From: Sphingomonas metalli
GTDB taxonomy: Bacteria > Pseudomonadota > Alphaproteobacteria > Sphingomonadales > Sphingomonadaceae
NCBI RefSeq assembly: GCF_014641735.1
Contig: NZ_BMIH01000003.1
Coordinates: 186,001-250,000 of the forward strand
Length of the DNA: 64,000 bases
Reading direction: 5' to 3'
Position 1 is the stretch's first letter, and each line of letters opens with the position of its first letter. The notes beneath the pieces were generated by a model. That model searched no databases, was not told the DNA's origin, and saw only the letters and a program-made list of their open reading frames with translations. The position numbers and the translations under genes are program-made. Positions 5,513 to 31,556 of this stretch are shown in pieces.

Positions 5513-7543
5513 ATGACGTCCCCGATCCGCACCGAGCGCCACGGCGAAGTGCTCGTCATCATCTCCGACAATCCGCCGGTCAACGCACTGTCGGCGGCCG
5601 TGCGTCAGGGACTTGAGGCCGCGATCAAGGAAGGCGTCGCGGACGGCTCGATCGAAGCAATGGTGATCCGCTGCGAGGGCCGCACCTTCTTCGCCGGCGC
5701 CGACATCACCGAATTCACCAAGCCGCCGGTCGATCCGCTGCTGCCGCAGGTGGTCGACATGATCGAGGCGTCGAGCAAGCCGGTCGTCGCCGCCATCCAC
5801 GGCACGGCCCTGGGTGGCGGGTGCGAGGTCGCGCTCGGCTGCCACTATCGCATTGCGGTGCCCTCGGCGAAGCTCGGCACGCCCGAGGTGAAGCTCGGCC
5901 TGCTGCCCGGCGCCGGCGGCACGCAGCGGCTGCCGCGCGTCGCCGGCATCGAACTGGCGCTGGAGATGACCGCCAAGGGCGATCCGATCCCGGCGCAAAA
6001 GGCGCATGAGGCGGGGCTGATCGATCGACTGGCCGGCGAGGGCACGCTGGTGGACGAGGCCATCGCCTTTGCCCACGACATCAAGGCGGCGCGCCCGATC
6101 CCGCGGGCGAGCGAGGCTCCGGTCAAGGGCGACCCGGCCGCCATCGAGGCGTTCCGCACCACCAATGCCCGCCGCTTCCGCGGCTTCGACGCACCCGCGG
6201 CGAACATCGCCTGTATCGAAAAGGCCGCGTCCGGCGCCAGCTTCGCCGACGGCATCGCCTTCGAGCGGCAGGAGTTCATGAAGCTGATGTTCGGCGTCCA
6301 GTCCGCCGCCCAGCGCCACATCTTCTTCGCCGAACGCCAGGCCTCGAAGATCGACGACGTGCCCGCCGATACCGCGCTGCGCCCGATCCGCCGCGTCGGG
6401 GTGATCGGCGCTGGCACGATGGGCGGCGGCATCGCGATGAACTTCCTGTCCGCCGGCATCCCGGTCACCATCGTCGAGATGGCGCAGGAAGCGCTCGATC
6501 GCGGCACCGGGACGATCCGCAAGAACTACGAGGCGACCGCCGCCAAGGGCCGCATCAAGCCCGAGCAGGTGGAAGGCGCGATGGGATTGCTGTCGCCCAC
6601 CCTAGACTTCGACGCCCTCGCCGACTGCGATCTGATCATCGAGGCGGTCTACGAGAATATGGAGGTGAAGAAGGAGATCTTCACCCGGCTCGATGCGATC
6701 GCCAAGCCCGGCGCGATCCTCGCGTCGAACACCTCCTATCTCGACATCGACGAGATCGCGGCTGTGACGAAGCGTCCGCAGGACGTGCTCGGCATGCACT
6801 TCTTCTCGCCCGCCAACGTCATGAAGCTGCTGGAGGTGGTGCGGGGCGCGAAAACGGCGGGCGACGTGCTGGCGACGGTGATGGATCTGGCCAAGAAGAT
6901 CCGCAAGGTCGCGGTGGTCGCCGGCGTCACCTATGGCTTCATCGGCAATCGCATGCTGATGCCGCGCCAGGTCGAGGCGACCAAGCTGTTGCTGGAAGGC
7001 GCCACGCCCGAGCAGATCGACCGGGTGCATGTCGCGTTCGGCATGCCGATGGGCCCCTTCCAGATGGCCGACCTCGCCGGCGTCGACATCGGCTGGCACC
7101 GGGATCCGACACGGATCGAGAATATCCGCGATGCGCTCGCCGCCGAGAACCGCTGGGGCCAGAAGACCAAGGCCGGATTCTACGACTATGACGACAAGCG
7201 CAATCCGTCGAACAGCGCCCGCGTCGCGGAGATCATCGACGACTTCCGCAAGCGCGAGGGCGTGACTCCGCGCGAGATCAGCGAGGAGGAGATCGTCGCC
7301 CGCACCCTCTATACGATGGTCAACGAGGGGGCGCTGATCCTGGAGGAAGGCAAGGCGCAGCGTGCGTCCGATATCGATGTCGTCTGGATCTATGGCTATG
7401 GCTGGCCCGTCTATCGCGGTGGTCCGATGTTCTGGGCCCAGTCCGAAGGGCTGGGCAAGGTGGTAGCCGGGCTGGAGACCTATGGCTTCCCCGTGGCGAA
7501 ATCGCTGAAGGATGCCGCGGCGAGCGGCGGCCGGCTCAAGTAG
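5513..7543 (+). CDS. bifunctional enoyl-CoA hydratase / 3-hydroxyacyl-CoA dehydrogenase
   Basis: A 676-residue fatty-acid beta-oxidation enzyme of the FadJ/FadB/peroxisomal type. The N-terminal half is a crotonase fold, with oxyanion-hole stretches [15 protein letters not shown] and [14 protein letters not shown] and then [16 protein letters not shown]. The second half is a 3-hydroxyacyl-CoA dehydrogenase with Rossmann motif [16 protein letters not shown] near residue 300, [12 protein letters not shown], the catalytic-His region [16 protein letters not shown], and GFIGNRML before the C-terminal dimer domains. It adds water to enoyl-CoA and then oxidises the 3-hydroxyacyl-CoA with NAD+. An AGGAGAG site precedes the ATG. 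It is the first gene of a plus-strand set with two acyl-CoA dehydrogenases and a thioesterase. The thiolase partner is not adjacent; a candidate lies at 23.9 kb. Confidence 0.92.
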
Positions 7544-11377: not shown

Positions 11378-11770
11378 TCAGACGATCATCGCGTCGCCGC
11401 CCGATCCCTTGGCGAGCACGCGGCCCATGGCCTCGAACAAATCATCCATCGCCACCGGCTTGAAGATCACGTCGTCCGCGCCTGCCGCAAGGCAGCGCTC
11501 GCGCAGGTCGATCGCGGCGTCTGCGGTGACGATGATGATCGGAACCTGCGCCTTTGCATCGGTGCGCGCGCGGATGTGGTGGACGGCGGTGATGCCGTCC
11601 ATGCCGGGCATTCTCAAGTCGATCAGCACGACCTGGAAATCCTGCTCGTCGATCAGCTTCAAACCGTCTTCGGCGCTTTCCGCCTCGACCATCGTCGCCC
11701 CGGCGACGTCCAGCATATCATTGACGACGCGCCGATTCATTCGGTCGTCCTCGATGAACAGGACGTTCAC
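11378..11770 (-). CDS. single-domain response regulator (CheY-like receiver)
   Basis: A 130-residue protein made only of a phosphoacceptor receiver domain. The acidic pocket is in LFIEDDRMN, the phosphorylatable Asp is in VVLIDLRMPGMDG, the Thr switch is in IIIVTADA, and the conserved Lys is in VIFKPV. No output domain follows, so it likely acts by protein-protein contact or as a phosphate shuttle or sink. The GTG start at 11770 is chosen because GGAGG lies 6 nt upstream; another in-frame GTG at 11812 has a weak ribosome site. It follows the hybrid kinase gene on the same strand and is the probable phosphorelay partner. Confidence 0.88.
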   Translation of the reverse strand: MNVLFIEDDRMNRRVVNDMLDVAGATMVEAESAEDGLKLIDEQDFQVVLIDLRMPGMDGITAVHHIRARTDAKAQVPIIIVTADAAIDLRERCLAAGADDVIFKPVAMDDLFEAMGRVLAKGSGGDAMIV

Positions 11771-11834
11771 CAGCCGCCTCCGTACGGTTGCGGGCAAAGG
11801 GTTGCGTAGCACCTCATGCCCGTTGCTCTACGCA

Positions 11835-14264
11835 TCATGCCGCCCGCGATACAAGCGGTGTTCCGGTCAACCTATCGCATTCCGTATCGAAAATCATGGC
11901 GGCGAGCGCCGCGCCGGCAATGGGCTTGGCGACGATCCGCGTCATCAGCGGCGCGACGCCGTCGCGGCCGTCGCGGTCGCCCGACCACAGGAGCGTCGTC
12001 TCGACTCCGGCAGCCTGCGCCGCGGTCGCAAGCGTCGCCGTGGCATCGGCAGGATCCGCGGCCGCGAACAGCGTGGCATCGTCGATCAGCATGCGGGCGA
12101 TCGCCCTGGAGCCGATCGCCGCGATCGCCTCGTCGACGGTGGCGGCGAACAGCAGCGTGCCCGCGCGCGCCTCCAGCAGGGTCTTCCACATGGCGCGGGT
12201 GATCGGACTGCGATCCAGCACCAGAAGGGCGGGCTGGTCGGCAAGCGGCGCCGTCGGCTCCGGCACCGCGGCCAGCTTGACCGGGATAACGACCGTGAAG
12301 GTCGCACCCTGTCCGACCTCGCTCCGGACCGTGATCGTACCGCCCATCGCCACCGTCAGGTTGCGACAGATGGCAAGCCCCAGCCCGGTACCGCCGAACT
12401 GCCGGGTCGTGCTGGCATCGGCCTGGCGGAAGGACTCGAAGATCGCACCCTGCTTCTCGGGCGCGATGCCGATGCCCGAATCGGACACGGTCAGCGCGAG
12501 CGCCTCGCCTCCGTCGACGGTGCAGGCGGTCAGCGCCACCTGCCCGCGGCTGGTGAACTTCACGGCATTCGACAGCAGATTGAAGACGATCTGCCGGATA
12601 CGGCCCGCATCGCCCATCAGCATCCTGGGCGCGTCCGCCAGATCGATCCGGTAATCGAGCCCCTTCGCGCGCGCCTCCTCTTCCCACAGGCGCGCGGCAT
12701 CGTGGATCGTCGCCGGGAGATCATAGGGCTGATCGTCCAGCGTCAGATGGCCGGTCTCCATCTTCGCGACGTCCAGAATGTCGTCGACCAGCGCCCGCAT
12801 CGTCAGTCCGGCCCCCTGCACCACGCCCAAACGATCGCGCGTCACCGGCGGCAGCGTCGCATCCGCGAGCATGACCTGGGTCATGCCCAATATGCCGTTG
12901 AGCGGCGTGCGGATCTCGTGGCTGGTGGTCGCCAAAAACTCCGTCTTGGCGGCCAGGGCCTTGTGGAGCTCCATATTGGTCACGGCCAGCCCGTCGCGCG
13001 CGACCCGCAGTGCATTGCGGCTACGCCGAATCGTAAACAGGCCGATTGCCAGCAACAGGATCACGATCGCGGTTGCGCCGCCGGCGACCAGGAACATCGT
13101 CCGCTGGAACCGCGTGCGCGCCTGTTCCAAAGCGATGCTGCGACGCAATTCGGCGGCCCGCAGCTTCGCGATGCGCAGCTCCTGATTGGCGAAGTCGAAG
13201 CGCGCGGCCATCAGCGCGTTGCTGGTGCTGGTGGCCAGCCGCGTCGCATCGTCGTCGATCCGCTTGACGGCGGCGAGATGCTCCATCGCCAGCTCGTAGC
13301 GGCCCTGCCGCTGGAAGACCCGATAGGCGGTAAGGTGCGGCTCCAGCCAGCTCGCCTCGGTGTCGTCGATGTCCACCTGGGCGAAGCTCTGCGTGATCAG
13401 CCGCTCGGCCTGACCGAAATTGCCCCGCTGGAAGGCGGCCTCGGCGGCCAGCGCCAACAATTGCGGCCGCCAGCTCGCCGCCTCGCCGGACGCCGCGACC
13501 GCAAGGCTGCGACGCACCGCCTGCTCCGCGGCCGTGACCTGTCCGGCCTTCAAGCGGTTGCGCGCCACATTGCGGAGCACTTGTGCGATGAGAACCGGGC
13601 TGCGCATCTTCTCGGCATAGGAGAGCGCGACGCGGAACTGCTGCTCCGCCTCATCGTGCCGCTTCAGGTCCTGCAACACTCCGCCGCGATTGTTGTAGAG
13701 CGCGACCATCAGGCCCGGATCGCCGCGATAGATGTCGGACGCCTGCGTCAGATAGCGGAGCGCACGCTCGTAATCCTTGCCGCTGCTGTAGAGCGATGCG
13801 ATCAGCATCAGCGCGATCGCCTGGCTGCGCTGATTGTCTATGCGCTCGAAAATCTTGAAGGCGTTCTGGAAGTCGGTCAGCGCGCCGCCGAACTGACTTT
13901 TGGCTCCGCGCAAGCTCCCCCGGGTCAGGCGTACTTCTCCGGCCAGCTCGGTCTGGTTGGGGCCAATCCGGTTCAGTGCCGATTCGATCAAGGGCGCCGC
14001 GCGATCCAGCTCTCCGAGTCGGAACATCGCTTCCGCCTGCAAGGCTTCGGCGGCAGCCAGGGTCTTCTGGCCGTCGGGCTGACCAGCATAAGCCCTGGCA
14101 GACGATGCGGCCTGTCGCGCGGCCTCGGCCGCGTTTTGCGGATCGACCATCATCGTCCGACGAGCGTCGGCGACTTGCCGGTCGATAACCGGCAATGGAG
14201 GGGCGGCCCGCACCTGTCCGACGAGCAAGCCTGCTAAGACTAGGCCGATCGCCAGCCGACGCAC
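11835..14264 (-). CDS. TPR-sensor hybrid histidine kinase with degenerate receiver
   Basis: An 809-residue membrane sensor kinase. It has a signal peptide (about 1-20), a long periplasmic all-helical region of TPR-like repeats (about 30-370), one membrane helix (about 390-412), and a HisKA domain with phospho-His449 in TSHEIRTPLNG. The ATPase domain follows, with NLLSNAVKF, SDSGIGIAPEKQG and FGGTGLGLAIC. After it comes a receiver-like domain (about 685-800) where the usual acidic pair and DxxMP motif are not recognisable (VLDRSPITR, MLIDDATL). The start is a GTG 2 nt after the upstream EAL stop, with an AGGTAG ribosome site. It should phosphorylate the stand-alone receiver encoded next. The TPR input may sense a periplasmic protein or peptide. 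Confidence 0.87.
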   Translation of the reverse strand: MRRLAIGLVLAGLLVGQVRAAPPLPVIDRQVADARRTMMVDPQNAAEAARQAASSARAYAGQPDGQKTLAAAEALQAEAMFRLGELDRAAPLIESALNRIGPNQTELAGEVRLTRGSLRGAKSQFGGALTDFQNAFKIFERIDNQRSQAIALMLIASLYSSGKDYERALRYLTQASDIYRGDPGLMVALYNNRGGVLQDLKRHDEAEQQFRVALSYAEKMRSPVLIAQVLRNVARNRLKAGQVTAAEQAVRRSLAVAASGEAASWRPQLLALAAEAAFQRGNFGQAERLITQSFAQVDIDDTEASWLEPHLTAYRVFQRQGRYELAMEHLAAVKRIDDDATRLATSTSNALMAARFDFANQELRIAKLRAAELRRSIALEQARTRFQRTMFLVAGGATAIVILLLAIGLFTIRRSRNALRVARDGLAVTNMELHKALAAKTEFLATTSHEIRTPLNGILGMTQVMLADATLPPVTRDRLGVVQGAGLTMRALVDDILDVAKMETGHLTLDDQPYDLPATIHDAARLWEEEARAKGLDYRIDLADAPRMLMGDAGRIRQIVFNLLSNAVKFTSRGQVALTACTVDGGEALALTVSDSGIGIAPEKQGAIFESFRQADASTTRQFGGTGLGLAICRNLTVAMGGTITVRSEVGQGATFTVVIPVKLAAVPEPTAPLADQPALLVLDRSPITRAMWKTLLEARAGTLLFAATVDEAIAAIGSRAIARMLIDDATLFAAADPADATATLATAAQAAGVETTLLWSGDRDGRDGVAPLMTRIVAKPIAGAALAAMIFDTECDRLTGTPLVSRAA

Positions 14265-14266
14265 GG

Positions 14267-15586
14267 CTACCTACGCGCCGTCGCGGCGAAGTTCGGCAGC
14301 GTCCGCTTTTGGGCATCGAGCCCGCCGGACAGGTCGGTCTCGAGAAACTTGATCAGGGCGGAAAGGGCGAGCGGCCGGCTGATCAGATAGCCCTGGACGA
14401 CGTCGCATCCCATCACCGACAGCAGCGCGAGCGCCGCCGGTGTCTCGACGCCTTCGGCCACGACCTCCATTTCGAGCGCATGCGCCAGATCGATCGTCGA
14501 GCGGACGATCAGCGGATCGCGGTTGGAGCTCGTCAGCTGGGTGACGAACAGCTTGTCGATCTTCAGCTCGCGCGCGGGCAGCTGCTTCAGATAGGCAAGC
14601 GAGGACAGGCCGGCACCGTAATCGTCGATCGCGATCGTAATGCCGATGTCGGCGAATGTCCGAAGATGCGCGATCGCGACGTCGGGGTCGTGGATGACCG
14701 CCGTTTCGGTGATCTCGAAGCCCAGGCTGGCGCCGCTGCTTTCGACCAGCGCACAGGCCCGCCGGACGAAGCGGGCGTCCGACAGCAGCACGGCCGATAT
14801 GTTGACGAAAATCTGGACTTCGTGACCCTGCTCGGCCAGCGTGCGCTGGTCCTTGATCGCCTGCTGGATCGTCCAGACGGTCAGGTCGGTGATGTCGTGG
14901 GACTCTTCGGCAAGGCCGATGAACTCGCCCGGCAGGACCAGTCCGCGCACGGGATGCTGCCAGCGGACCAGCGCCTCGACGCTCAGCACACGCTGCTGCC
15001 GCACATGCGCCTTGGGCTGGTATTGAAGGAAGAGCTCGCCCTTGCCGATCGCGCCGCGCAGGTCCCGGACCAGGCTCCGCCGGTCGGCGGTGTCGGGGCT
15101 CGCACCCACCTCGCGCAGCACCGGCTCGCGCTGTTCGCGGGCGTCGTCCAGCGCCCGCTCCGCTTCGTCGATAAGCCGCACTTCGTCGCAATGCGGCGTC
15201 GCGATCGCCCCGCCCAGCGTCAGCTCGATGGCATAGGGCTCGCCGTCGATCTCGAAGGCCGCTTCGAAGGCGCGGTCCAGTCGCTGCAGCGCGGCTTCGA
15301 AGCCGGCATGGTCGGTGCCGGCGAAGTGGATCTCCAGCCGGTCGTGACCCACCACGGTGACGATCGCGGCCGGTGTCAGCCGCTCCACGAAGGCGGCGAG
15401 ATCGGCGGCCAGCAGATTGGCGCGCCCGACGCCGAGATGCCGACGCAAGATCGCGAAATTGGCGATGCGGCCGATGATCAGCCCGACCTGCCACGGCTTG
15501 GATGCGCGACCGGTCGAGGAAGCGCGCGCGGCGCCCCCTTCCGTGGATTGGCTCGGAAAGCCGGCTCGGTCGACGGGCGAAGTCAT
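14267..15586 (-). CDS. EAL-domain c-di-GMP phosphodiesterase with degenerate GGDEF-like N-terminus
   Basis: A 439-residue cytoplasmic protein. Residues about 35-160 look like a GGDEF-type fold but have no GGDEF motif. Residues about 170-425 form an EAL domain with the catalytic set intact: VEALVRW (E204), VNIS, EITET, IDDYGAG, ELKIDKLFV, VAEGVET and VQGYLIS. It is therefore predicted to hydrolyse c-di-GMP to pGpG and to lower the second messenger that promotes attachment. It is the first gene of an EAL / hybrid kinase / receiver operon, with 2 nt before the kinase GTG. A symmetric CtrA-type box lies 90 bp upstream. No membrane or sensor segment is present. Confidence 0.88.
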   Translation of the reverse strand: MTSPVDRAGFPSQSTEGGAARASSTGRASKPWQVGLIIGRIANFAILRRHLGVGRANLLAADLAAFVERLTPAAIVTVVGHDRLEIHFAGTDHAGFEAALQRLDRAFEAAFEIDGEPYAIELTLGGAIATPHCDEVRLIDEAERALDDAREQREPVLREVGASPDTADRRSLVRDLRGAIGKGELFLQYQPKAHVRQQRVLSVEALVRWQHPVRGLVLPGEFIGLAEESHDITDLTVWTIQQAIKDQRTLAEQGHEVQIFVNISAVLLSDARFVRRACALVESSGASLGFEITETAVIHDPDVAIAHLRTFADIGITIAIDDYGAGLSSLAYLKQLPARELKIDKLFVTQLTSSNRDPLIVRSTIDLAHALEMEVVAEGVETPAALALLSVMGCDVVQGYLISRPLALSALIKFLETDLSGGLDAQKRTLPNFAATARR

Positions 15587-15675
15587 CGCCTGCGGGCGTA
15601 ACCCGCAATCGTAAACAATGGCTTAAGGATGGGCCACCCGTCCCGGAACGCGACGGCAGGGCCGTTGAGATATGG

Positions 15676-15691
15676 TTAAAATTCCCTTAAC
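15676..15691. promoter_or_regulatory. CtrA-type box (TTAA-N7-TTAAC), symmetric
   Basis: TTAA at 15676-15679, seven bases, then TTAAC at 15687-15691 match the full CtrA consensus of Alphaproteobacteria. Because the site is preceded by G, it reads as a full site on both strands. It also contains ATGGTTAA (15673-15679 plus one base), the reverse of the TTAACCAT half-site. It lies 90 bp before the EAL gene and 42 bp before a 17-codon ORF on the other strand. A possible -35 (TTGAGA, 15665-15670) with a weak -10 near 15688 would make the box overlap the plus-strand promoter. Binding is inferred, not shown. Confidence 0.55.
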
Positions 15692-15732
15692 GTGAGCGAG
15701 CGTCCAACGAGGCGCTTTCAAGGGAGATAACC

Positions 15733-15786
15733 ATGCTGCGTTTCATTCTCGCACTGATCCGTAACGAAGACATCCGTCCCTGGTAA
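15733..15786 (+). CDS. putative 17-residue small protein (MLRFILALIRNEDIRPW)
   Basis: A complete 17-codon frame from ATG to TAA. The start has a strong ribosome site (AAGGGAGAT, 4-5 nt before the ATG), and 11 nt after the stop comes an exceptionally strong terminator. The peptide has a hydrophobic N-terminal half (LRFILALI) and a charged C-terminal half ending in Trp. It could be a small membrane-associated peptide, a leader peptide without a following gene, or the coding part of a dual-function small RNA. Nothing is encoded downstream on this strand. The region behind it carries a CtrA-type box. I do not recognise the sequence and assign no function. Confidence 0.5.
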   Translation: MLRFILALIRNEDIRPW

Positions 15787-15796
15787 CAGGGCGCTG

Positions 15797-15850
15797 GGCC
15801 CGGTAGCGGCTCCGCCGGCTGTGCCGGCGGTCTCGCTACCGGGCCTTTCT
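15797..15850 (+). terminator. strong intrinsic terminator after the 17-codon ORF
   Basis: The outer 12-bp stem GGCCCGGTAGCG / CGCTACCGGGCC encloses a second perfect 8-bp stem CCGCCGGC / GCCGGCGG with a TGT loop. The two stems are separated by matching 3-nt bulges, and TTTCT follows. It may also end transcription of the convergent tamB on the other strand. Confidence 0.8.
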
Positions 15851-15864
15851 GCGTCCGAATCGCC

Positions 15865-18800
15865 TCAATAATCCTTGCGATAGCGCACGCTCCCCGCCGA
15901 CCCGCCGAACGATCCGGTCGAGGTCAGGATGCTCAGCGATCGGGACAGGGCGATCTCCAGCTGCGTCGCCGTGAAGCCGCGCGCGTCGGTGACGATCTCC
16001 ACATAGATATCGTCGGTCAGATATTTGCCCGCCGCGAGGCTGGTACCGCGGCCGCTCGCCTCGTCGGCACCCAGCACGCGGAGCCGGTCGAACCCGGTCG
16101 CCGAGCGCAGCTTGCCGAGCGGGTTGAGCCCACCACCCGAACCCCGCAGCGAGTTCAGCGCCGATGCCAGCTGGATCGCCTCGGTCGCGGAGAGGTTCTC
16201 GGGGTTCGTCCCGAACAGCAGGCGGCTCAGCACCTCGTCCTGAGGCAGCGCCGGCGTCGAGGTGAAGGCGATCTGCGGCCGCTGCCCGGTCCCGGTCACG
16301 TTGATCACCGCGGTGATCCCGTCGGTGGTGGTGGTCGCCTGGATATTGATGTCCGGGTCGGTCAGGGCGCCGCCGCGGAACCGGATGACGCCGCGATTCA
16401 CTTCGAAGCGCTTGCCAGCGAACGAATAGGTCCCGCGGATCAGGTCGAGCCCGCCGCCGATCGTCGGCGCGGCCGAGGTGCCGCCCACCTGCAGGTTCAT
16501 CTGCCACTCGGACTCGAGGCCCATGCCGGAGACGAACAGCTGGTTGTCGGCGCGGATGCGCAGGTCGAGGCGGAATAGCCCGGGAGGGGCCGCCGGGGCG
16601 GGCCGGTCGGTCGGGCGGGCAATGCGGATATCGCTTCGGCGACGCACACCCGTCAGTTCGGGCACCTCTGCCGCGCCCTGACGGATGATCTGATAGCGGG
16701 CGTTCGGGACGGTCAGCACGCCGCGGATCAGCCCGCCGTCGCGGCCGTTGGTCAGCCGCACAGTGCCGCTCGTCGTCGCCGCCAGCGCATCGCTGTTCGC
16801 CAGCCGCGCATTGGTGAGCCGCGCGGTCAGGTCGATCGGGTAGCCCGAATCTGCCGCCAGTCCCACCGATCCCTGCGCCTCGACCGTGCCGTCTCCAGCC
16901 CGCGCCTGCAGGCGGGTCAATTCCAGCCGGTCGTTGCTGAAGCGCGCGGCGATCTGCATCCGCGTCAGCCGCGTTCCATAGGTCTCGTTGTCATAGGTCA
17001 GGTTGTCGGCACGGATCAGGCCGTTGAGTCTCGGCGCCGACACACGCCCCGAGAAGTCGGCGGCGACGGCGATCGGACCGCTCAGCTGCTGGTTGGGCAG
17101 CGCCGCGAAGGAGAAGAGCACCGCGGACGGCCCGTTGTAGCGGATCCCGCCGGACAGCGGCGCCTGCATCAACCGCGTGGTCCACGGGCCGGTGCCGGGC
17201 GGCAAGGGGCGCAGCGCCGCGACCAGCCGCCCGACCACGGTGGTACCGCTCTTCACCAGTGCGCGAGCCTCGCCACCATCGGGGACGAGCCGGCCGGCGA
17301 AGACGATGTCGACGGGATCGGACACGGCCGCGACCCCCGTCCGGCGGAACTGGGCGATCGTCATGCGTGCGTCGGCCGAGGGGAAGCTGGCCCCGGCGGC
17401 CTGGCCGTAATCAAGGCTGCCGGTCGCCTGGCCGGAAATGCCCAGATTGGGCACGAAGGCGCTGAGGATCGACAGGTCGAGCCGGTCGAGGCGCAGCTGG
17501 ACGCTGGTCGCGTTGCCGAAGCTCCCGGCGATCCGGGCGGAGCCCTGCCGCAGGTCGATCCGGGTCGGCGAGAGACGATAGGTGCCGCCGGCGGCCTGGA
17601 TCCGGGCAGGATTGGCGGTGCGGAAGTCGATGCCGTTCGCCTGCCCCTGCAGCGCCACCAGATAGTCGTTGGGTGCCAGCCGCCCGTTGAGCGCGACGCG
17701 GAACGGCACGCCGCTCGACCCGGTCAGCAGCGCCTGCGCCGTTCCGCGTCCGCCGACATAGTTCACCTTCGCCCGCGCGGACTGGATGACGGTCGGCCCG
17801 TAACGGGTGTCGGCCAGTTGCACGTCCGCCACCACCTGCGGCGCCTTGGGCAGCAGCACGATGCTGGCATTCGCGATCGCGCGTCCGATGGTGAAGTCGA
17901 CCTGCCCCGGAATGCGGGCGTTATAGGCACGCGCCGCCACGTCGGCACGCTGGTTCCCGCCTTGATTCGCGAGCCGGACCGAACCGGTCAGCCCCTGTCC
18001 GTTGAAGGCGAGCGCGCCGGCGAACGGGCCCGCGGCGGTCTGGACCACGCGTCCGTTGGCGAGGATGCCGGCAAAGACCACCCGCCGGACGTCGATGGCC
18101 AGTTGCGCACCGGGCCTTACCAGCACGTCGGCGGTGAAGGGACCATAGTCGGTCCCGCCGCTCGCGGTCACCGCATAGGCGCCGCCGCGCCCGACGATCC
18201 GGGCGTTGAGATCGGCGAGGCCCACCCCGACACCGGGGTGCGGAGCGCGGACAACCACGACGGGGCTGGTCGCGCTGCCGGTCACCCGCGCGAACAGTGG
18301 GCCATATTGCCCGGACACGGCATCGGCCTCGACCGCGACCGCGCCGGTGCTGGGATCGAACCGGCCCCTGCCCCGGGTCACGCGGAATTGCGGAGCGTTG
18401 AGGCGCAGGCCGGCAAAGGTCACGATCCCTTCCGGGCTGTAGCTGATATCGGCGCGCACGACCGCATTGCCGCCGAGGAAATTGCGGATGCCGCTGTTGA
18501 ACAGCTGCTCGGTCCGCGCGACGACCCGCCCGCTGATGCCGAAGCCGCCATTGGGGCCGGGCACCAATCTGGCGTCGGTCGTCAGATCGACAATGCCGAT
18601 CGACTCGACCCTGTAATTGTTCACGCGGCCCTTCAGTGCGCCCGTGTACCGGCCGGTCTGGACATTGGCGACGACGATCGCGGTCGCGTCGATATTGTCC
18701 GAGCGGATACGCAGATTGTCCGACAGGATGTTCGGCATCGAGATCGCGAAATCGCCCTGGATGGCGACGTTGTTCGCCAGACCGCCGACCGCCGCATTCA

Positions 18801-20091
18801 GGCCGGTGACCCGCCGCGCCCGCGCCTTGACGGGGACGAGGATGCGGTCGGCGTTCACCTGCGCGAGACCTTCGGCGTAGAGCGCCTCCACCCCGGTCGT
18901 ACCGAAGCCGAGCCGCGCGGCAGCGATCTTGTAGTCCACGGTCGGGGTAGCGAAGGCGCCGTTCAGGACGACCCGCGCCGTCACGTCGCGTCCGTTCAGA
19001 TTGGGCGCGATTGCTCCCGGCGTCAGCAGCCGTGCGTCGATCGCGAAATTGCCGAAACGGCTGTTCGCCAGATCCAGCACCCCGCCTGCGTCGACGACCA
19101 GCGCGTCCGAGCGAAGCTTGATTCGACTGTCGGCGCTGCGCTCGGCGAGCGTCGTGTCGATCGCGACCTGCAAGGCCGGCGCGGTCAGACGCTCCACCGG
19201 CCCCTCGAGGTACAGGCCCGGGCGCGCCGTGCCGCGGACCTCGATATGGCCGTCCCTCGCGCCGAGCGTCAGATTGGCCAGCTCACCGCCCCCCAGCGTC
19301 GCCACGGCCCGGCCTTGCCACGCCGCCCAACTGCCGCGCCCGTCGACAGAGACTTGCAGCGGTGCCTTCAATCCGGCCATCGTCGACACGACGCCACCCG
19401 TCGGTGCCGCCAGCTTGACGTCGATATCCAGCCGGTTGCGGTCCGGAACGGCGTCGAGGCGCAGGGCCAGCCGGTCACCGCCCGCCACACCCGGCCCGCG
19501 AAGGGCGGCGGCGTTGGCGACGATCTGCGCGCGCCGATCGGCGACGTGCACCGTCCCGTCGATCGACAGGATATGCGCCTGCCCGGTCACCGGCGGCGCC
19601 AGCACCAGCCGCGCGATGCGGAGGCGGCCCACGTCGATGTCGAGATCGGGCAGCAGCGGTGCATTCGGGTCGGACGGCGGCGTCTGCTTGAGCACCGGTC
19701 GCCGGCGCACGGTGATCTGGCCGGCGCTCAGCTCGCGCACGTCGATATGGTTGCGCGCATAGGCGAAGGGGCGCCAGTCCACCTCCAGCCGGGGACTGTC
19801 GACGAACACCCCCTGCGGATCGCTGACCCGGAGGTCCGACAGGATCATCCGCCCGTAGAGCGAGCCGTCGATCCGCCCGACCTTGATGTTGAGACCCGAT
19901 GCCGTGGTGTAGCCGCCGATCTGGTCGGCGACGAAGCGCCGCCCGGGATCGGTGTTGATCCCGAACAGCACGACGAGCACCAACGCGACGAGGCCGAGTA
20001 TCGCGATACCGAGCCACTTGAGCAGCCGCAGCCAGAGGGGCCGCCGTTGCACGGCCACTGCGGACGCGCCCCGATCGATCTCGTCCGTCAT
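15865..20091 (-). CDS. tamB: translocation and assembly module protein TamB (DUF490)
   Basis: A 1408-residue inner-membrane-anchored, periplasm-spanning protein. Near the N-terminus a single membrane helix (about residues 24-45, LGIAILGLVALVLVVLFGI) is followed by the AsmA-like start of the family (IGGYTTASGLNIKVGRIDGS, LSDLRVSDPQGVF). The bulk is repetitive beta-rich sequence forming a hydrophobic groove. The C-terminal DUF490 region contains FRGGALTDPDINIQATTT, FTSTPALPQDEVLSRLLFG and GKYLTDDIYVEIVTD. It cooperates with TamA in outer-membrane protein assembly and possibly lipid transport. Its ATG overlaps the tamA stop (ATGA), so the pair is translationally coupled. The large size is normal for Alphaproteobacteria. 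Confidence 0.92.
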   Translation of the reverse strand: MTDEIDRGASAVAVQRRPLWLRLLKWLGIAILGLVALVLVVLFGINTDPGRRFVADQIGGYTTASGLNIKVGRIDGSLYGRMILSDLRVSDPQGVFVDSPRLEVDWRPFAYARNHIDVRELSAGQITVRRRPVLKQTPPSDPNAPLLPDLDIDVGRLRIARLVLAPPVTGQAHILSIDGTVHVADRRAQIVANAAALRGPGVAGGDRLALRLDAVPDRNRLDIDVKLAAPTGGVVSTMAGLKAPLQVSVDGRGSWAAWQGRAVATLGGGELANLTLGARDGHIEVRGTARPGLYLEGPVERLTAPALQVAIDTTLAERSADSRIKLRSDALVVDAGGVLDLANSRFGNFAIDARLLTPGAIAPNLNGRDVTARVVLNGAFATPTVDYKIAAARLGFGTTGVEALYAEGLAQVNADRILVPVKARARRVTGLNAAVGGLANNVAIQGDFAISMPNILSDNLRIRSDNIDATAIVVANVQTGRYTGALKGRVNNYRVESIGIVDLTTDARLVPGPNGGFGISGRVVARTEQLFNSGIRNFLGGNAVVRADISYSPEGIVTFAGLRLNAPQFRVTRGRGRFDPSTGAVAVEADAVSGQYGPLFARVTGSATSPVVVVRAPHPGVGVGLADLNARIVGRGGAYAVTASGGTDYGPFTADVLVRPGAQLAIDVRRVVFAGILANGRVVQTAAGPFAGALAFNGQGLTGSVRLANQGGNQRADVAARAYNARIPGQVDFTIGRAIANASIVLLPKAPQVVADVQLADTRYGPTVIQSARAKVNYVGGRGTAQALLTGSSGVPFRVALNGRLAPNDYLVALQGQANGIDFRTANPARIQAAGGTYRLSPTRIDLRQGSARIAGSFGNATSVQLRLDRLDLSILSAFVPNLGISGQATGSLDYGQAAGASFPSADARMTIAQFRRTGVAAVSDPVDIVFAGRLVPDGGEARALVKSGTTVVGRLVAALRPLPPGTGPWTTRLMQAPLSGGIRYNGPSAVLFSFAALPNQQLSGPIAVAADFSGRVSAPRLNGLIRADNLTYDNETYGTRLTRMQIAARFSNDRLELTRLQARAGDGTVEAQGSVGLAADSGYPIDLTARLTNARLANSDALAATTSGTVRLTNGRDGGLIRGVLTVPNARYQIIRQGAAEVPELTGVRRRSDIRIARPTDRPAPAAPPGLFRLDLRIRADNQLFVSGMGLESEWQMNLQVGGTSAAPTIGGGLDLIRGTYSFAGKRFEVNRGVIRFRGGALTDPDINIQATTTTDGITAVINVTGTGQRPQIAFTSTPALPQDEVLSRLLFGTNPENLSATEAIQLASALNSLRGSGGGLNPLGKLRSATGFDRLRVLGADEASGRGTSLAAGKYLTDDIYVEIVTDARGFTATQLEIALSRSLSILTSTGSFGGSAGSVRYRKDY

Positions 20092-22280
20092 CAGAAGGCC
20101 TGCCCGATCGAGATATAGAGCGCGACCTTGCCGTCACCGGGCCGCGGGTTGAGCGGCGTGGCGATGTCGACGCGGAACGGGCCGAAATTGGTATAGAAGC
20201 GCCCGCCGATGCCCGCGCCGAAGCGCAGGGACGAGAAGGTCGGCAGGCTCGATTCGTAGCTGTTGCCCGCATCGATGAAGGGCACGATCCCGAAATTGCC
20301 GAAGCGATAGCGCGCCTCGACCGCGAATTCGTTGAGGCTCCGGCCGCCGACCGGGTTGCCCTCCGGGTCGAACGGGCCGAGCCTCTGATAGCCATAGCCG
20401 CGCACCGAGCCGCCGCCGCCGCCATAATAGCGGCGCGAGGGCGCCAGATCGTCGCGATCGATCCCCTGGATCGATCCGGCACGGGCCCGGCCCGCGATCA
20501 CCAGACTGTCGCTGACCGGGTAGTAGCCGGTGGCCTCCACCATCGTCCGCACATAGGGCCGCACCCCGCCGCGCACCGAGGTCTCGGGGCTGAGGTTCAG
20601 CTTCAGCCGGAAGCCCTTGGTCGGATTGAGGAGGCTGTCCGATCGGTCGAACACGACCTGGCCCGGCAGTGCCGCGATCCCGAACGTGCCCCGCCGGCGC
20701 CGCCCGAGGCCGAAGTCATAGACATCCTCGTTGGTGCCGGTCAGCTCGACGCCATAGGCATAGGTGAAGCGCTTCTGCCAGATCGGTGTCGAATCATAGC
20801 TCCAGCGCAGCGCCAGCGTCCCGATATAGGCTTCGTACGCATCATAGTTCTGGTGGCTCGCATTGGCGATGATCGAGAAGGTCCGGTCGCGCCGGCCGGC
20901 GTTCGAGCGGCGGAAGGTCGCGCCGACGCCCTGCTCCTGGGTGCCGGCCACCGCCGTCGCGATCAGCGCACCCTCGTCGGGAAACAGGTTCCGATGGGTC
21001 CAGCTTCCTTCGATCCGGACGCCCTGCCCCGTCGAATAGCCGCCCGTCGCGGCGAGGGACCGCGCCGGACCCTTGGTCTGTCGCACCAGCAGGTCGACCG
21101 CCTCGGTCCCGTCGGGGCCGGGTCGACCGCTCTGTTGCGGCTCGACCGAAATATTGCGGAAGAGGCCGGTCGCCACCAGCGCCTCGCGCAGATCGTCGGT
21201 CAGCCGCGAGTCGTAGAGCTGCCCCTCCTTGTAGCGGGGGAAGACGTTGAGGTGGTCGAGCCCGAAGACGGCGTCGCCCGTGGTCACGATCCGGCCGAAC
21301 GACGATCGCGGCCCCGGCGTGACCGGCAGCACATAGGCCCCGACCGGATCGGGGGACTGGTCTTCCAGCAGAATGTCGCGGTCGCCGAGCTTGACGAACG
21401 GATAGCCGCGCTGCGGCAGGACCAAGCTGACATTGGCCTCGGCACCCTGCACCCGCGCCGCCTCGATCGGATCGCCGACCTTGAGCGGCAGGTTGCGGCG
21501 GATCAGGTCGTCCGGCACTACGGCGGGCGCCTGGACCGTAATCGACGAAAATCGGTACAGTCGCCCCGGCGTCGCCGTCAGCACCGCGCGCAGTCGCCCG
21601 CTCGGTGCGCCCCCGTCCTCGGCGGGCACCTGCTCGATCACCGACGTCGCGGTCGCGTCATAATAGCCCAGCGAGCGCATCAGCCGGACAGCGAGGCCCT
21701 CGTCCTCGCGCGCCCGCGCCGACAGCTGCGAGGCGTTGGCCGCCTTCCCCTTGCCCTCGCGCAGCGCCGACAGGCTCTTGAACTCGTCGTCGAGGTTGAG
21801 CGGCTCCAGCCCGCGTACGACCGTGTCGTACCGGATGTCGGGCAGATCCTCGCCCCGCGCCGCTGCCGCCGTTTCGAGCGGTGTCGTGTCGAAGCTGCCG
21901 ATCGGCGTCAGGGGCGCGGCAAGCGCCGGGTCTTCCGGCGCGACCGTACCGAGCGCGTCGCCGGTGGCGATCGGTGCGGCCGTCGTGGCCGGCGGGGGCG
22001 ACACCGTTCCGGATGCAGGCGGGATCGGCTCCAGCGGCGCGTTGATGTCACCCGACAGCGGCGGCAGCGCCGCGTTGAACTCTGCGTCGGGAACGATCGG
22101 CGCATTGCCGGCGGGGTCGGATGAAGGGGCGTCACCCGGCTGACGCGGCGACGGGTCCTGCTTGGGCGCATCCGGGCCGCGCGCGGGAGCGGTTCCTGGC
22201 TGCGACAACTGGGCGGCAGCAGGGGAGGCGGCGAACAGCGCGACGGCAAGCCAGTGGTGGCGGCGATCCTGGCCCTTCAC
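20091..22280 (-). CDS. tamA: TamA/BamA-family outer membrane protein (Omp85)
   Basis: A 729-residue Omp85 protein. A signal peptide (LAVALFAASPAAAQ) precedes a long Pro/Ala-rich segment (about residues 22-130) that is unusual compared with E. coli TamA. POTRA domains follow, and then a C-terminal 16-strand barrel with GGGGSVRGYGYQRLGP and a final GKVALYISIGQAF ending in phenylalanine, the Omp85 insertion signal. With TamB it forms the translocation and assembly module. The only suitable start is a GTG at 22280; an ATG just upstream is out of frame. It is followed directly by tamB with a 1-codon overlap. Confidence 0.92.
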   Translation of the reverse strand: MKGQDRRHHWLAVALFAASPAAAQLSQPGTAPARGPDAPKQDPSPRQPGDAPSSDPAGNAPIVPDAEFNAALPPLSGDINAPLEPIPPASGTVSPPPATTAAPIATGDALGTVAPEDPALAAPLTPIGSFDTTPLETAAAARGEDLPDIRYDTVVRGLEPLNLDDEFKSLSALREGKGKAANASQLSARAREDEGLAVRLMRSLGYYDATATSVIEQVPAEDGGAPSGRLRAVLTATPGRLYRFSSITVQAPAVVPDDLIRRNLPLKVGDPIEAARVQGAEANVSLVLPQRGYPFVKLGDRDILLEDQSPDPVGAYVLPVTPGPRSSFGRIVTTGDAVFGLDHLNVFPRYKEGQLYDSRLTDDLREALVATGLFRNISVEPQQSGRPGPDGTEAVDLLVRQTKGPARSLAATGGYSTGQGVRIEGSWTHRNLFPDEGALIATAVAGTQEQGVGATFRRSNAGRRDRTFSIIANASHQNYDAYEAYIGTLALRWSYDSTPIWQKRFTYAYGVELTGTNEDVYDFGLGRRRRGTFGIAALPGQVVFDRSDSLLNPTKGFRLKLNLSPETSVRGGVRPYVRTMVEATGYYPVSDSLVIAGRARAGSIQGIDRDDLAPSRRYYGGGGGSVRGYGYQRLGPFDPEGNPVGGRSLNEFAVEARYRFGNFGIVPFIDAGNSYESSLPTFSSLRFGAGIGGRFYTNFGPFRVDIATPLNPRPGDGKVALYISIGQAF

Positions 22281-27683: not shown

Positions 27684-27846
27684 CTCGTCCTCCCGCGCAG
27701 GAGCCGCCAATACCGGCCCGGCGCTCATGGTGGGCGGCGGGCAACTCGCGGCCGCCGACCCTATGGGAGATGCGCCGTCAGGGTTGACGAAAGGTTAAGC
27801 GCGCGACCAACTGCCTGATAGCAGCCGCGTTTGCGACGAGCCGGGA

Positions 27847-31501: not shown

Positions 31502-31556
31502 CCCTGAAGTTCAACCTGGGGCGGAGCTTAATCCAGCGTTCATCCAGCCTCAAGAC

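Follow-up and report, generated by a model that had tools for sequence, protein, structure and literature searches.

In the CtrA regulon of Caulobacter, the effect of a site follows its position: CtrA sites near the -35 activate, half-sites over the -10 repress, and at the divergent promoters of flgB and fliO a single site has opposite effects on the two genes (PMC6180460). Sphingomonas has a CckA/CcsA-ChpT-CtrA pathway (PMC8921679, PMC7232146), which in S. melonis is reportedly dispensable (PMC7200025), and deletion of welA in Sphingomonas sp. WG raised ctrA and the phosphodiesterase Gene1094 together and lowered c-di-GMP (PMC8921679).

Short peptide genes near TPR proteins are familiar from the RRNPP systems of Firmicutes (Rap-Phr, Rgg-SHP), where the shp and rgg genes are laid out divergently, and small membrane proteins of the MgrB kind regulate sensor kinases. 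Duplicated pheromones occur in RRNPP systems (PMC11343458).

Here we describe a locus of Sphingomonas metalli that has points in common with each of these systems. The explanation that we favor, and that we consider reasonably probable when all of its parts are taken jointly, is that the core promoter of a micropeptide gene, itself unannotated, contains a conserved CtrA-type operator, that this gene and a divergent operon (EAL protein, TPR sensor kinase, receiver) form a lineage-specific unit, and that a reciprocal switch would control the two, with the peptide tuning the products of the operon.

A CtrA-type box between divergent genes

We analyzed a 64-kb stretch of DNA, called the window below, in which the locus comprises the following features (the 113, 111 and 94 sequences are described in the next section).

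11378-11812, minus strand: single-domain response regulator (Pfam PF00072)
11835-14264, minus strand: sensor kinase with a signal-peptide-like start, TPR sensor domain, TM helix, HisKA and HATPase
14267-15586, minus strand: EAL-domain protein, predicted to be a probable c-di-GMP phosphodiesterase (Pfam PF00563, E 2.2e-62)
15611-15626, minus strand: degenerate box TTAAGCCATTGTTTAC, one mismatch to TTAA-N7-TTAAC, within the -35 region presumed for the EAL promoter
15665-15670, plus strand: -35-like TTGAGA, a presumed assignment, 11 nt upstream of the full box; TTG 82-85% conserved (profile of 111 of the 113 loci; conservation is inflated by the alignment on the best box match)
15676-15691, plus strand: full CtrA-type box TTAAAATTCCCTTAAC, within what is presumed to be the core promoter of the peptide gene
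15688-15694, plus strand: presumed -10 region with consensus TAAnnAT (same profile of 111 loci), which overlaps the box in its downstream half
15700-15715, plus strand: 5' hairpin with stem GCGTC/GGCGC, between the box and the ribosome site, with covariation in 94 sequences
15720-15726, plus strand: ribosome-binding site AAGGGAG, conserved in the alignment
15733-15786, plus strand: 17-codon peptide gene MLRFILALIRNEDIRPW
15796-15846, plus strand: long 3' hairpin, a probable terminator (mean z -4.0 against shuffles, 113 loci)

The box fits the consensus TTAA-N7-TTAAC on both strands, as the first-pass annotation of this DNA had claimed, and no other exact TTAA-N7-TTAA occurs in the window, where 0.01 would be expected and one of 100 dinucleotide shuffles contained one. 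The earlier remark that no second copy could be seen in the 64 kb is therefore correct for exact matches. Versions with one mismatch also occur at window positions 27784-27798 and 31528-31542. The reversed half-site that had been noticed in the box region was found as ATGGTTAA at 15672-15679. The EAL start codon (15586, minus strand) lies 90 bp from the box, the distance given previously; the small gene likewise proved to be where it had been placed, except that it starts 41 bp after the box and not 42 bp.

A conserved family of micropeptides

When 61 genomes were searched at the DNA level, two relatives of the same genus matched over the ORF and slightly beyond, with the flanks unmatched; the sole match in another genus was unrelated. 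We used a strict pattern consisting of a ribosome site, ATG, 39 nt, CGN CCN TGG and a stop codon, which was found in 101 of 295 genomes of the genus (the host included), whereas the reversed-pattern control found none. All but one of the 101 positive genomes contained a single match. Another 60 genomes, all negative for the pattern, were searched with the EAL protein, and 53 had an EAL ortholog (E < 1e-100) while seven did not. A variant of the peptide was present in all 33 that were examined of those 53 (30 of 30 by reading, and 3 of 3 diverged orthologs by covariance model), and the variants in the 30 loci read were 16-21 residues long, every one divergent to the EAL gene.

The counts below come from 113 distinct loci, 83 chosen by the RPW pattern and 30 reached via the EAL gene, one identical row out of 114 having been dropped; related sequences among them are not independent. 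The pattern had 102 places, of which 84 loci were analyzed (82 plus L002 and L003), the other 18 being mostly near-duplicates by eye. A peptide was accepted if it ended in [RKQ]P[WFIVL], and the same peptides were seen without this filter. The endings were RPW (89 loci), RPF (9), KPW (6), RPV (4), RPI (3), RPL (1) and QPF (1). Among the 94 peptides of length 17, Pro16 is invariant, and codon position 2 varies least in the corresponding ORFs; dN/dS for the ORF is 0.43 (pairs at least 75% identical). The best conserved part of the peptide is its C-terminal tail, G-[ED]-x-[IL]-R-P-W, in a set where most loci were selected by RPW.

Additional copies of the gene were found in three genomes. Two of them (G009 and G097) carry four tandem ORFs of 19 residues (e.g. 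MLAFVLALVGFVGTTIRPW), each with its own ribosome site, and in both genomes the four are bracketed by one 5' and one 3' hairpin (positions 1580-1860 of L210 and of the reverse strand of L209). The third, G246, contains a second, stand-alone copy (L198, reverse strand, 6819-6916) with no EAL gene in the 6.9 kb upstream. This copy encodes an identical peptide, with 95% identity over 99 bp, and its promoter has diverged yet keeps the TTG, the TTAA-N7-TTAA and the hairpin. We note that the coding DNA of L198 is near-identical to the main copy and its promoter is not, as if there had been a recent conversion. The tandem and stand-alone copies together indicate that the peptide and the box are the unit under selection.

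Conservation, the codon pattern, the tandem copies and the stand-alone copy rule out a spurious ORF, and we regard it as almost certain that the gene is real and translated. The family, of 16-21 residues and mostly ending in R-P-W or R-P-F, is apparently undescribed; searches of the open-access literature found no description of this peptide.

A stricter variant of the strict pattern, run on 84,980 species, gave 46 named loci (43 in Sphingomonas, 2 in Hephaestia and 1 in an uncultured bacterium) and none in any other taxon, and a covariance model with stricter filters found the peptide in none of 70 genomes of other genera. An over-loose pattern was also run on 396 genomes of the order; the matches listed were for the most part due to chance, and this pattern was useful for 16-codon variants only. 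By eye, we noticed a candidate peptide of 24 residues ending in SIPPL in a genome of another genus (G376; L220, reverse strand near 2541). It adjoins an EAL-kinase pair, has a one-mismatch box and was missed by the covariance-model search; because of this candidate and its box, the family may extend beyond the genus.

Conservation of the box

The first-pass annotation had named lack of conservation of the box in close relatives as one finding that would refute its proposal. In the 90 nt upstream of the peptide start codon, an exact TTAA-N7-TTAA is present at 77 of 113 loci (0.2% of shuffles), and a version with at most one mismatch at 108 of 113 (4% of shuffles), so the proposal passes this test. 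The end of the box is mostly 41-44 nt upstream of the start codon, and at some loci the box is shifted relative to the TTG (e.g. L018-L020 and L022). For the loci reached via the EAL gene, the box is exact in 16 of 30 and within one mismatch in 29 of 30. Single-base shuffles were used for these counts, as well as for those of GANTC, the 5' stems of at least six pairs and the EAL-side box, and for the z of the 3' hairpin. GANTC (CcrM) sites in the promoter showed a weak excess, with 20 of 111 loci against 10.5 expected in shuffles (shuffle maximum 18). Given this conservation, we regard the box as very probably functional, and its chief client is the 17-codon gene.

The partner operon

At all 84 pattern loci analyzed, and in all 33 of the further genomes examined, the EAL gene is divergent to the peptide gene. 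Of the named loci, 20 extend at least 4.4 kb upstream, and 19 of these keep the order EAL-kinase-receiver, the stand-alone copy being the one that does not. The C-terminus of the sensor kinase is receiver-like, with no Pfam match. Partners are also absent jointly: neither the peptide nor the kinase sensor was found in any of the seven same-genus genomes without an EAL ortholog. Searches for the sensor were positive for all of 8 same-genus genomes that have the operon. Outside the genus, 7 of 46 genomes had it, and in six of these seven no peptide was detectable (in G319, by covariance-model search only).

On the other side of the peptide gene, the next gene in the window is TamB, which is convergent. 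TamB and an Omp85 protein, both convergent to the peptide gene, occupy window positions 15865-22280, and TamB is downstream in many named loci at a varying distance.

A second box and a predicted reciprocal switch

The degenerate box at 15611-15626 on the minus strand was missing from the first-pass annotation. With the first box excluded, 82 of 113 intergenic regions have a TTAA-N7-TTAA of at most one mismatch on their EAL side, compared to 1.4% of shuffles. In this count 15 of the 113 loci gave no usable region, their start codon having been placed too far out. TTAAC half-sites, again excluding the first box, numbered 122 in the 113 intergenic regions against 9.6 expected. Aligned on the best box, 93 of the 113 loci yield the profile TTAA-N7-TT[CT]A, with TA 11 nt after it and the start codon approximately 13 nt further. 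A search for this motif (TTAA-N7-TTNA, TA 11 nt later) returned nothing, or this locus alone, in the host genome, and four matches in the genomes of 12 relatives, all at this same locus. We rejected the motif as a general CtrA-activated promoter, as there was no wider regulon in the host and the 12 relatives, and because it was found at no other promoter in these genomes the link of the EAL-side box to CtrA is only putative.

These results support the earlier proposal in part. A CtrA-type box is indeed present in the promoter region by the EAL operon, next to a small gene that is real, but the idea of one site coupling all of these elements is too simple, because a separate, degenerate box lies near the presumed -35 of the EAL operon.

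In the arrangement that we envisage, CtrA~P would bind over the -10 of the peptide gene and turn that gene off, and would bind the weaker box at the -35 of the EAL gene and turn the operon on; these opposite effects would constitute a reciprocal switch. We infer activation at the EAL box and repression at the peptide box from the position rule for CtrA sites (PMC6180460). TTG and TAAnnAT are taken, from the profile, as the -35 and -10 of the peptide promoter, with predicted start sites, so that the box would cover the -10. The presumed -10 of the window itself is poor. Because the box overlaps this presumed -10, repression of the peptide gene is suggested, and we lean slightly toward repression as the effect that CtrA would have there. 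The peptide, with its hydrophobic N-terminus and conserved tail, would tune the products of the operon, most likely by binding to the TPR sensor of the kinase.

The kinase sensor as a candidate receptor

Residues 23-430 of the kinase are modeled by AlphaFold2 as a TPR superhelix (mean pLDDT 90), which is probably periplasmic to judge from the predicted topology. When a profile of this sensor was compared with sequences in the PDB, RapJ ranked second and RapH third. In fold comparisons the best matches were LGN/Pins, including LGN with bound peptides, and Rap proteins, some with pheromones, appeared from rank 20. Asn on the concave face is common among TPRs generally. Asn232 of the kinase is invariant in 27 of 27 sequences and aligns with RapJ Asn225, a residue that forms a hydrogen bond with the backbone of the pheromone; when it is mutated, sensitivity is abolished (PMC3601965). 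The position of Asp199 holds an acidic residue in 22 of 27 sequences and aligns with RapJ Asp192, whose counterpart in RapF binds an Arg that is conserved in the pheromone (PMC3601957); the micropeptide too has a conserved Arg. The RapJ contact Tyr150 is unmatched in the kinase (alignment read by hand), and conservation on the TPR concave face overall is not significantly above that of other positions (p = 0.14). As residues of this kind are widespread among TPRs, and as conservation is no better over the whole concave face, we treat the Rap-like residues as a lead, not proof.

We accordingly offer only tentatively the proposal that the TPR sensor of the kinase reads the peptide. The fuller scenario, in which a peptide of approximately 17 residues ending in R-P-W would be released to the periplasm or to neighbours and read by the TPR kinase, with CtrA switching the peptide and the receptor operon oppositely, is rather unlikely. 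The peptide may instead act in the cell or membrane, in the manner of small membrane regulators, on the EAL enzyme or on the transmembrane part of the kinase, rather than as a TPR ligand, and we see this as a possible, if rather unlikely, mode of action. It would fit the constant position of EAL as the divergent neighbour (84 of 84 loci), the hydrophobic character of the N-terminal nine residues (mean Kyte-Doolittle +2.2) and a peptide in which a separate export signal is not visible. However, some ten hydrophobic residues are insufficient for a membrane span, and conservation that is greatest in the C-terminal tail, albeit among loci mostly selected by RPW, looks more like that of a recognized motif.

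CtrA as the reader of the box

The host encodes CtrA (NCBIfam NF045991, 422.9 bits against a cut-off of 350). Its genome of 3.86 Mb has four exact TTAA-N7-TTAA sites, and the reversed-pattern control likewise has four, so the genome-wide count is uninformative by itself. The box draws its evidential weight from its conservation in relatives and from the fact that one of the four genomic boxes precedes ctrA, approximately 87 nt upstream of the start codon. As to the others, a second is upstream of a PEP-CTERM gene, and a third is between a PEP-CTERM metalloprotease gene and its divergent neighbour (both in L154/L155, around 1501-1516). A literature search listed no CtrA ChIP-seq study in sphingomonads.

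From these observations we think it likely that CtrA reads the box at 15676-15691. It is improbable that the box is the site of another regulator, or part of a sigma-70 promoter with a chance TTAA. The TTAA half-site is short, and the TTG and nnAT that flank the box do resemble a core promoter. Against this, the upstream TTAA is 88-98% conserved per base (profile aligned on the box) although it falls inside the presumed promoter spacer, where RNA polymerase requires no sequence; the 7-nt spacing is exactly that of a CtrA full site; and the same motif is found upstream of ctrA.

The transcript and its hairpins

Two hairpins flank the ORF. In the alignment of 94 sequences, 89% of the cells in the 5' hairpin are paired, versus 73% in shuffles, and there are 97 double changes, versus 27 in shuffles and 15-48 in slid versions. 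A stem of at least six pairs is present in this region at 93 of 113 loci against approximately 13% of shuffles, and the stem in the window has five pairs. The alignment of the 3' part covers 30 of the 94 sequences. The 3' hairpin of the window is very strong, but its U run is short and a terminator scan did not report a hairpin after the peptide ORF. We rejected a known RNA family as the identity of the transcript: a search of window positions 15000-16200 with Rfam 15 gave no match above the gathering score, and one sub-threshold miRNA match (E 1.7).

The covarying 5' hairpin, the strong 3' hairpin and the compactness of the transcript could point to a small RNA, or to a leader or attenuator whose ORF serves ribosome-dependent control only. 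We consider this quite improbable. The same-strand regulated gene that a leader would have directly downstream was not seen, as TamB is convergent in the window and a rough stop-to-stop frame scan of the other loci revealed no obvious consistent follower on the same strand; furthermore, four tandem ORFs within one hairpin pair and constraint at the protein level speak against this reading. A type I toxin or antimicrobial peptide, to which a short hydrophobic peptide with strong hairpins and tandem copies in two genomes might also correspond, is very improbable in view of the fixed synteny and joint absence with one signaling operon, the conserved C-terminal tail and the fact that 100 of the 101 genomes positive for the pattern contain one match each.

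Comparison with known systems

This work adds a conserved micropeptide family that is too short for usual annotation and has a strict genetic partner. The locus can be used to ask directly whether linear peptides encoded in the genome are paired with TPR sensor kinases in Gram-negative bacteria, and how CtrA is connected to c-di-GMP in sphingomonads.

The likeness to the RRNPP systems consists of the proximity of a short peptide gene to the gene of a TPR protein, the TPR fold, a peptide-anchoring Asn and the occurrence of tandem or duplicated peptide copies. The receptor candidate is encoded behind EAL as the second product of the divergent operon, and its Asn232 on the concave face is a weak criterion, being a common TPR feature. 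Unlike in the RRNPP systems, the host is Gram-negative, the TPR domain is seemingly periplasmic and fused to a histidine kinase, and the peptide has 16-21 residues and no obvious pro-region. The candidate is not a cytoplasmic DNA-binding or Rap receptor, as the kinase has a signal-peptide-like start and a TM helix; we do not class the system as a member of RRNPP because its candidate receptor is a membrane histidine kinase (topology by reading). MgrB-like regulators are similar in that a small peptide is tied to a kinase, whereas here the peptide has approximately 17 residues and no full transmembrane helix, and its gene is divergent to the kinase operon.

With Sphingomonas sp. WG, the likeness is the link between CtrA and a phosphodiesterase, there Gene1094, which has weak activity and is associated with a fall in c-di-GMP; identity with the EAL gene is not implied, and the text cited from these reports does not mention a peptide (PMC8921679, PMC7232146). 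Finally, the locus shares with the CtrA regulon of Caulobacter and other Alphaproteobacteria the exact TTAA-N7-TTAA, its position in a promoter and a full site before ctrA, and it differs in that the predicted target is a micropeptide gene, with the box lying over the presumed -10.
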